NCBI RefSeq assembly: GCF_001426525.1
Contig: NZ_LMEW01000035.1
Span: 1 to 64,000, forward strand
Origin: Massilia sp. Root133
GTDB lineage: Bacteria > Pseudomonadota > Gammaproteobacteria > Burkholderiales > Burkholderiaceae_D
Direction: 5' to 3'
DNA length: 64,000 nucleotides
The translations under genes were made by a program, and so were the position numbers. The notes below the pieces were generated by a model that worked only from the letters and a program-made list of their open reading frames with translations, searched no databases and had not been told where the DNA came from. Below are positions 24,719-57,350 of the stretch, in pieces. Position 1 is the stretch's first letter. Each line of letters opens with the position of its first letter.

Positions 24719-24837
24719 CGGACGTCGAATAACCTGCTGCGCGTTGCACTGTCGTTCTGCGATGCTCGCTGTACTACTCGTACAGCTGCGCTTCTCGAAC
24801 AATAGTGCTGCCGCTCGCGACGGTTCTTCGAGGTCCG
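24719..24837. repeat. Structured palindromic repeat, copy 1
   Basis: This 119-nt element can fold on itself along its whole length. Outer arms are CGGAC-g-TCGAA-t-AACC and GGTT-c-TTCGA-g-GTCCG. Inner arms are GCACT-N3-GTTC and GAAC-N3-AGTGC, and the apical stem GCTGTAC/GTACAGC closes a short loop. It is about 80% identical to the copy at 57235-57350. Substitutions and one-base indels fall in both partners of the arms, so pairing is preserved. It sits between the nitroreductase stop and pbpG. I do not recognise the family. Confidence 0.8.
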
Positions 24838-24877: not shown

Positions 24878-24911
24878 TTTCTACAACGCATCTCGTTTTG
24901 CGTTGTAGAAA
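24878..24911. promoter_or_regulatory. 13-bp perfect inverted repeat upstream of pbpG
   Basis: TTTCTACAACGCA (24878-24890), an 8-nt spacer, then TGCGTTGTAGAAA (24899-24911). It is about 105 bp before the endopeptidase start. A-runs rather than T-runs follow on the plus strand, so it is not a usual terminator for the nitroreductase. It could be an operator or a leader hairpin. Confidence 0.5.
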
Positions 24912-57234: not shown

Positions 57235-57350
57235 GGGACGTCGAAAACCTGCTGCGCGTTGCATTTTTGTCCTGCGATGCTCGCTGTACCAGCGTACAGC
57301 TGCGCTTCTCGAACAAAACTGCTGCCGCTCGCGACGGTTTTCGAGATCCC
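57235..57350. repeat. Structured palindromic repeat, copy 2
   Basis: A 116-nt relative of the element at 24719-24837. Outer arms are GGGA-N2-TCGAAAACC and GGTTTTCGA-N2-TCCC. The inner arms GCATTTTTGTCC and GAACAAAACTGC still pair at ten of twelve positions, though both changed from copy 1. The apical GCTGTAC/GTACAGC and several blocks between the arms (TGCTGCGCG, CTGCGATGCTC, CTGCGCTTCTCG, CTGCCGCTCGCGAC) are unchanged. It is 80 bp upstream of prkA, in the prkA-deaminase divergent spacer. Confidence 0.8.

Follow-up and report, generated by a model that had tools for sequence, protein, structure and literature searches.

A dispersed, mobile family of hairpin elements in Massilia and related genera that frequently abuts stop codons

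What kind of element are two similar palindromes that lie between genes in a 64,000-nt stretch of the Massilia sp. Root133 genome (the window), and what has kept their arms complementary? A first-pass annotation made from the letters had put elements at 24719 and 57235, and we find both there (Table 1). It estimated that they share about 80%; the likeness was borne out but the figure was too low, as BLAST gives 90% identity across positions 2-118 of 119. Each copy folds on either strand into one long hairpin, as had been described, with z-scores of -5.5 to -6.4 that none of 200 shuffles equalled. The paired changes that had drawn attention to the locus are also visible in the aligned copies: the outer arms read AATAACC/GGTTCTTC in one copy versus AAAACC/GGTTTTC in the other, a one-base indel in both partners, and the inner stem has been re-paired. 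The two apical blocks of copy 1 pair around three fixed Y.Y mismatches, and its 5' foot block reads CTGCTGCGCG, compared to CTACTGCGCG in most of the other genera aligned.

Table 1. Positions in the window of the two copies, the conserved blocks of copy 1 and the preceding stop codon
Feature	Position	Strand	Basis
Copy 1, entire imperfect palindrome	24719..24837	+	BLAST, folding, covariance model; congeners with empty site
Copy 2	57235..57350	+	BLAST and covariance model; seven congeners empty, G036 filled, G478 core-deleted remnant
Nitroreductase gene, TAG stop codon	24709..24711	+	Sequence; PF00881 5.6e-37
Conserved foot block, 5' arm	24734..24743	+	Alignments A2, A3
Conserved apical block, 5' arm	24757..24774	+	Alignments A2, A3
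Conserved apical block, 3' arm	24780..24797	+	Alignments A2, A3; mismatch count
Conserved foot block, 3' arm (CCGCTCGCGACGG)	24811..24823	+	Alignments A2, A3

Only 7 nt separate the nitroreductase stop codon from copy 1, and a scan at copy 1 found no promoter-like site nearby. Copy 2 is an exception to placement behind a gene: it sits in the space between the divergent prkA (minus strand) and adenosine deaminase (plus strand) genes, upstream of prkA and 80 nt from its start codon. On the minus strand a weak scan picked out a promoter-like sequence at 57578-57550; copy 2 falls between it and prkA and would then be part of the prkA leader. Separately, the window holds at 24878-24911 a 13-pair stem with a T-rich minus-strand tail (TTTCTACAACGC...GCGTTGTAGAAA) that is recognisable at filled and most empty sites aligned; it is perhaps a terminator between the nitroreductase and S11 peptidase genes.

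The hairpin element is widespread and not confined to the genus of the window. Within the 7.1 Mb genome of origin a blastn-type search returned 45 matches, many partial or weak, and covariance model R1, built from the 28 copies of alignment A2, returned 30 at E<=2.6e-11 with 150 of 7862 candidates scored; one of these, L088, is a partial match next to another copy. The first-pass annotation had suggested such a search and had allowed that there might be just two copies, or that others might lose the pairing. Neither is the case, and the resemblance goes well past what chance would produce: there are about 30 copies in this genome, and RNAalifold predicts 43 pairs on the 28 aligned copies, 20 of them with changes on both sides. 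The near-invariant blocks AACCTGCTGCGCGTTGC, CTGCGATGCTCGCTGTAC, GTACAGCTGCGCTTCTC and CCGCTCGCGACGGTT stand in this alignment between helices that vary and still pair. As a side observation, a short additional stretch interrupts the 5' inner arm of L013, L019, L021, L024 and L027, and L026 has one near the apex; by eye, these inserts look self-complementary.

A DNA query matched 28 of 36 congeners. Across the GTDB family R1 matched 80 of 145 genomes, from 33 of 44 genera; copy numbers run from 1 to at least 23 per genome (up to 23 candidates being scored in each). Across the class it matched 9 of 274 genomes, the genome of origin counted. Foot blocks are shared and the apical part is longer in 13 of the 14 class-level loci printed, L171 being the exception. 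A particular apical variant, matched exactly, occurs in 16 stretches from Herbaspirillum, Zoogloea, Massilia and Burkholderiales MAGs. A genome of the Herbaspirillum group (G522) has 39 matches, several of them in tandem with a spacing of ~130-155 nt (G522:C2:125733-126774 and 842743-843343). Carriage by plasmids or phages was considered and set aside, copy 1 having no blastn match in plasmid and phage records; the apical pattern gave 0 matches in viral contigs. A comparison with Rfam, also suggested by the first-pass annotation, gave nothing reaching a gathering threshold for the window, for copy 1 (E<=10) or for 20 loci. The literature searched, including the parts consulted of a review on MITEs (PMC10969869), yielded no description of the family, though one may exist.

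Occupancy of orthologous sites shows that the family is mobile. Thirteen congener sites were aligned at copy 1: eleven show the intergenic gap but no element, one (G482) is filled, and for one (L253) the alignment stops with the gene. The contig copies at 57228, 127287 and 138496 have empty counterparts in G479, G482, G009 and G031, and hence all four contig copies checked have empty congener sites. At the site of copy 2, G022, G032 and G476 are empty as well, the more distant G036 is filled and G478 retains the outer arms only; at the 127287 site G022 carries the element (by eye). Such patchy occupancy means repeated loss or repeated insertion in the same place. Core-deleted remnants of ~38-44 bp that keep the outer arms were noted in the genome of origin (L311, C35:439396; L314, C2:53785; L322, C12:201594) and in G478 (L301); they look as if the hairpin had been deleted repeatedly near the same points.

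The empty-site junctions within the genus are fuzzy. Flanks of 118 of 120 copies (L089 and L218 missing) gave only a weak signal for a 4-5 bp duplication, and flank comparison did not establish a single duplication length there. Three outgroup genomes (G230, G376 and G338) are clearer. Their copies have outer arms of the form GAGNTTGTGAAAAAACC (G230/G376 type), the other end type of the family being GGGNACSTCGAAAAACC. Of the 17 complete end-pairs, 16 are flanked by the same 3 bp on both sides, namely TNA in 15 cases and TAT in one. The exact apical string is present in eleven of the 17, of which 10 show the duplication; in the remaining six the core is a variant one or is deleted. Duplications of 3 bp with the form TNA are typical of IS5-family (IS1031 group) transposases, and 3-bp duplications point to a DDE transposase. 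The first-pass annotation had listed, among other options, a mobile palindrome moved by a transposase in trans. This option fits best: empty sites, outgroup duplications and copies that drift yet stay complementary agree with it, but no transposase was found. None of the 50 places listed in the genome of origin showed an autonomous partner with the same ends; apart from copies of the element and core-deleted remnants, the list holds isolated matches, inspected in part, for which it gives no partner end. Seven loci of G376 and G230 had no obvious transposase among up to four longest ORFs (by eye); the separate listing of places with such ends covered these two genomes in part. G230 and G376 also contain palindromes of ~190-250 bp (L333-L352) with GAGNTTGTGAAAAAACC ends and extra core inserts.

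Where do the copies stand relative to genes? None of 120 copies lies inside a called gene, the calls coming from a simple caller that may be wrong in single cases. Whichever base stands at N, TNA reads as a stop codon on one strand (TAA, TGA, TTA, TCA). In the three outgroup genomes the triplet coincides exactly with the stop of the adjoining called gene for 7 of 19 end-pairs, two of these seven resting on weak gene calls and two being cut by a contig end. Abutment on a stop codon is frequent. A stop within 8-20 nt of AACC/GGTT was found for 12/29 copies in G000, 6/29 in G022, 14/30 in G197 and 21/30 in G181 (L089 and L218 were again left out of the counts of stop distance and of U-tracts). 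For 27 of the 30 copies of G181 the nearest stop on its side is in sense, and 20 of these stops lie 10-13 nt before AACC, that is, at the edge of the arm. Among 34 copies from different genera, an ORF stop 34-60 nt before the core was seen in sense for 24 and on the antisense side for 6; 6 have it on neither side and two on both. In the window's own genus the copies are oriented almost at random towards genes, with 8 '++' against 12 '--' in G000 and 8 against 8 in a second count. Choosing TNA as target and losing those insertions that break genes may be enough to account for exact stop matches in about a third, and for the placement as such. The U-tract of an intrinsic terminator is mostly absent: at least 6 T in 8 nt, 10-30 nt past GGTT, occur in 14/118 copies on the plus strand and 4/118 on the minus strand.

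Herbaspirillum presents a case of retention, with the same sites occupied across many species of one genus. Matches were found in 33 of 34 genomes, the missing one being 63% complete. We read 90 loci from 31 genomes, a part of all matches, and in 82 of them a sense ORF stop lies 24-46 nt before the core. Upstream genes recur: pstB in 24 of the 31 genomes, ahpC in 11, sucB in 10, argJ in 8, polA in 6 and one unnamed gene in 11; the rpsU site is found in 6, with the stop 119-127 nt off. The pstB copy is the sole match in seven genomes. Downstream genes, identified by eye, are phoU, ahpF, recX, livF-like and glpK, and in g54, g41 and g29 the element lies between prpC-like and acnD-like genes (by eye).

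Both between genera and at a single site, the arms have stayed complementary while their sequence drifted. Alignment A3 comprises 34 copies from 17 genera; 90.3% of its cells pair, compared to 67.5% when shuffled and 33-42% in slid controls. Two-sided changes occur in 32 of 41 pairs, with a covariation score of 0.578 against 0.163. The number of further pair types is less telling, since the observed 90 was reached by 7 of 500 shuffles. The A3 structure was predicted from its own alignment and hence favours itself, for which the slid controls compensate only partly. Three Y.Y mismatches spaced by 3 nt run through the apical helix, C.T or T.T in 34/34 copies, T.T in 33/34 and T.C in 33/34. These mismatches are fixed and the other stems drift yet pair; therefore the fold is kept, mismatches included. 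At the pstB site the orthologs (alignment A4, 23 distinct rows) show two-sided changes in 22 of 44 pairs, and 89.2% of cells pair against 77.1% when shuffled; the structure was written by hand from the same sequences and is likewise self-favouring, with the slid controls again a partial compensation. One of five covariation measures, further pair types, gave 34 here, below all 500 shuffles (mean 39.6). G187-type and G118-type stems at this site share little and both still pair; they may be independent re-insertions at the same stop codon.

If selection acted on a sense transcript, G.U should be favoured over A.C, and this is so, weakly, in the window's own genus only. The cells of A3 comprise 1228 Watson-Crick, 27 G.U, 66 A.C and 69 other combinations, and those of A4 comprise 895, 8, 59 and 50 on the sense strand. 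As 43 of the 59 A.C cells of A4 sit in five columns, this excess stems partly from related sequences and column register. Direct alignment of the arms across genera gave 830 Watson-Crick, 9 G.U and 45 A.C; G181 gave 20 G.U and 48 A.C, and G000, G022 and G197 together gave 104 G.U and 69 A.C. Split by orientation, these three have 38 G.U versus 21 A.C for '++' and 31 versus 24 for '--', and neither in them nor in G181 is G.U tied convincingly to the transcribed strand, in a comparison that left out 13 copies. Because the G.U signature is seen only in the own genus, and weakly, arm upkeep may have a cause at the DNA level, possibly hairpin or cruciform DNA during movement or correction templated by the opposite arm. 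Selection on a fold, which the first-pass annotation had deduced from the covarying arms, is thus upheld by covariation at one orthologous site, while, with G.U intermediates rare, the fold that is kept may be one of RNA or of DNA. Overall its interpretation is partly supported.

We think it probable, although far from certain, that the family is a MITE-like palindrome that spread at stop codons and was domesticated as a hairpin of 3'-UTRs and intercistronic gaps. The element is a mobile palindrome that spans about 100-150 nt and codes for no protein. On this reading the outer arms would serve as terminal inverted repeats, the conserved blocks further in would make up a recognition structure, and a transposase would move the element in trans. 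Insertion would make a short target duplication, TNA where this is readable cleanly in the three outgroup genomes; since TNA is always a stop on one strand, insertion at the last codon would regenerate the stop and put the hairpin directly behind the gene. Retained copies could then, as mRNA hairpins, stall 3'-5' decay, and the upstream gene would thereby be expressed above the downstream one in pstB|phoU, ahpC|ahpF and prpC|acnD. We infer this RNA role. Several observations speak against the domesticated-hairpin reading. A.C exceeds G.U on the sense strand at pstB (59 vs 8), which selection at the mRNA level does not predict; in the own genus duplication is unclean and orientation almost random, and few copies abut a stop in G022; no autonomous partner appeared among the places listed in the genome of origin, and copy 2 is not behind a gene.

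A selfish MITE could look much the same. Its copies would have no host role and would be tolerated behind genes since other insertions were lost, and hairpin-templated template switching would correct the arms; gain and loss among congeners, the core-deleted remnants in the genome of origin and G478, the near-random orientation in the own genus and the almost exclusively Watson-Crick pair changes would all follow. We nevertheless regard it as rather unlikely, as the same few sites are held in sense orientation throughout Herbaspirillum, up to being the sole match in seven genomes, and as correction would erase the three Y.Y mismatches, each kept in at least 33/34 copies, unless they were selected. 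That the family is instead a conserved trans-acting small RNA or cis leader, its dispersal being secondary, seems highly improbable. The small RNA and the regulatory leader, both proposed by the first-pass annotation, found no positive support: Rfam gave no match, copy 1 lacks a promoter-like site nearby, placement is mostly 3' of genes, G.U pairs are few and both orientations occur in the own genus. Covariation at the orthologous pstB site and the conservation of the inner blocks over 17 genera would agree with it. Hardly more credible is a REP/REPIN-type element moved by a RAYT (Y1 transposase), since the hairpin is a single long one compared to units of 20-40 bp and 3-bp duplications suggest a DDE transposase; the genome of origin has two Y1 transposase genes (PF01797), neither near a strong copy, and in that genome no RAYT flanked by the element was found. 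In its favour, the feet contain CGTC-like motifs or CTAC, which reads GTAG on the opposite strand, and GTAG REPs are, in the parts consulted of PMC3733652, also located 3' of genes, where they often give a TAG stop.

A bolder form of the domestication hypothesis, which we offer tentatively and think somewhat less likely true than false, would describe a self-spreading hairpin cassette that targets TNA, parks harmlessly at gene ends and has become a domesticated decay barrier setting protein ratios of core operons (pst-phoU, ahpCF, suc, prp). Upkeep at the DNA level would hold its arms complementary, and complementarity would thereby outlive the turnover of stem sequences. As pair changes are nearly all Watson-Crick, the family offers a natural test of whether 'RNA-like' covariation can arise from DNA-level palindrome upkeep. 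If the reading is true, this would be a concrete case in which many operons obtain 3'-end hairpins ready-made from a mobile family, and in which gain, loss and retention throughout a genus are seen at named genes.

How does the family compare with known systems? Bacterial MITEs include NEMIS, RUP, ERIC and Nezha (PMC3733652, parts consulted). The present element is likewise short, non-coding, dispersed and gene-adjacent, it has inverted-repeat ends, it shows presence and absence at orthologous sites (four copies), and in some hosts it has a target duplication, for which the own genus gives only a weak signal. It differs in that sequence and shape of the inner core are conserved across 17 genera while ends and stems drift, in that several species of a genus have kept a single copy at one and the same gene, and in its stop-codon abutment. 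GTAG/CGTC-tagged REPs, described by Di Nocera et al. 2013 as units of 20-40 bp (PMC3733652), are also palindromic, lie 3' of genes and bear similar GTAG/CGTC-like motifs, and the same source, in the parts consulted, reports for Halothiobacillus neapolitanus CGTC-1 dimers inside 41-bp palindromes GGGaaGCTT-GAAAaACC...GGTaTTTCgAAGC-gCCC, which resemble the outer arms of our family. Motif likeness and these palindromes suggest a common background. Identity with these REPs was rejected: instead of a 20-40 bp unit ending in GTAG/CGTC, the unit is a single hairpin of ~116-150 nt (100-150 nt in the family) in which invariant and drifting helices are nested. The main text of that paper mentions neither 'Burkholderi' nor 'Herbaspirillum' nor 'Massilia'. 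Hairpins in intercistronic gaps act as decay barriers in E. coli, e.g. in malE-malF (PMC5927463, parts consulted). Our hairpins share with these their stability, the mostly missing U-tract and a position in an operon gap behind a gene likely needed in excess; here, in contrast, a mobile family supplies the hairpin, and protection is putative. Those directly behind ahpC, pstB or prpC and before a co-directional gene lie where the E. coli barriers act, from which we infer that they might play the same role. The element works as MITEs do and may, where it has been retained, act as an intercistronic protecting hairpin.
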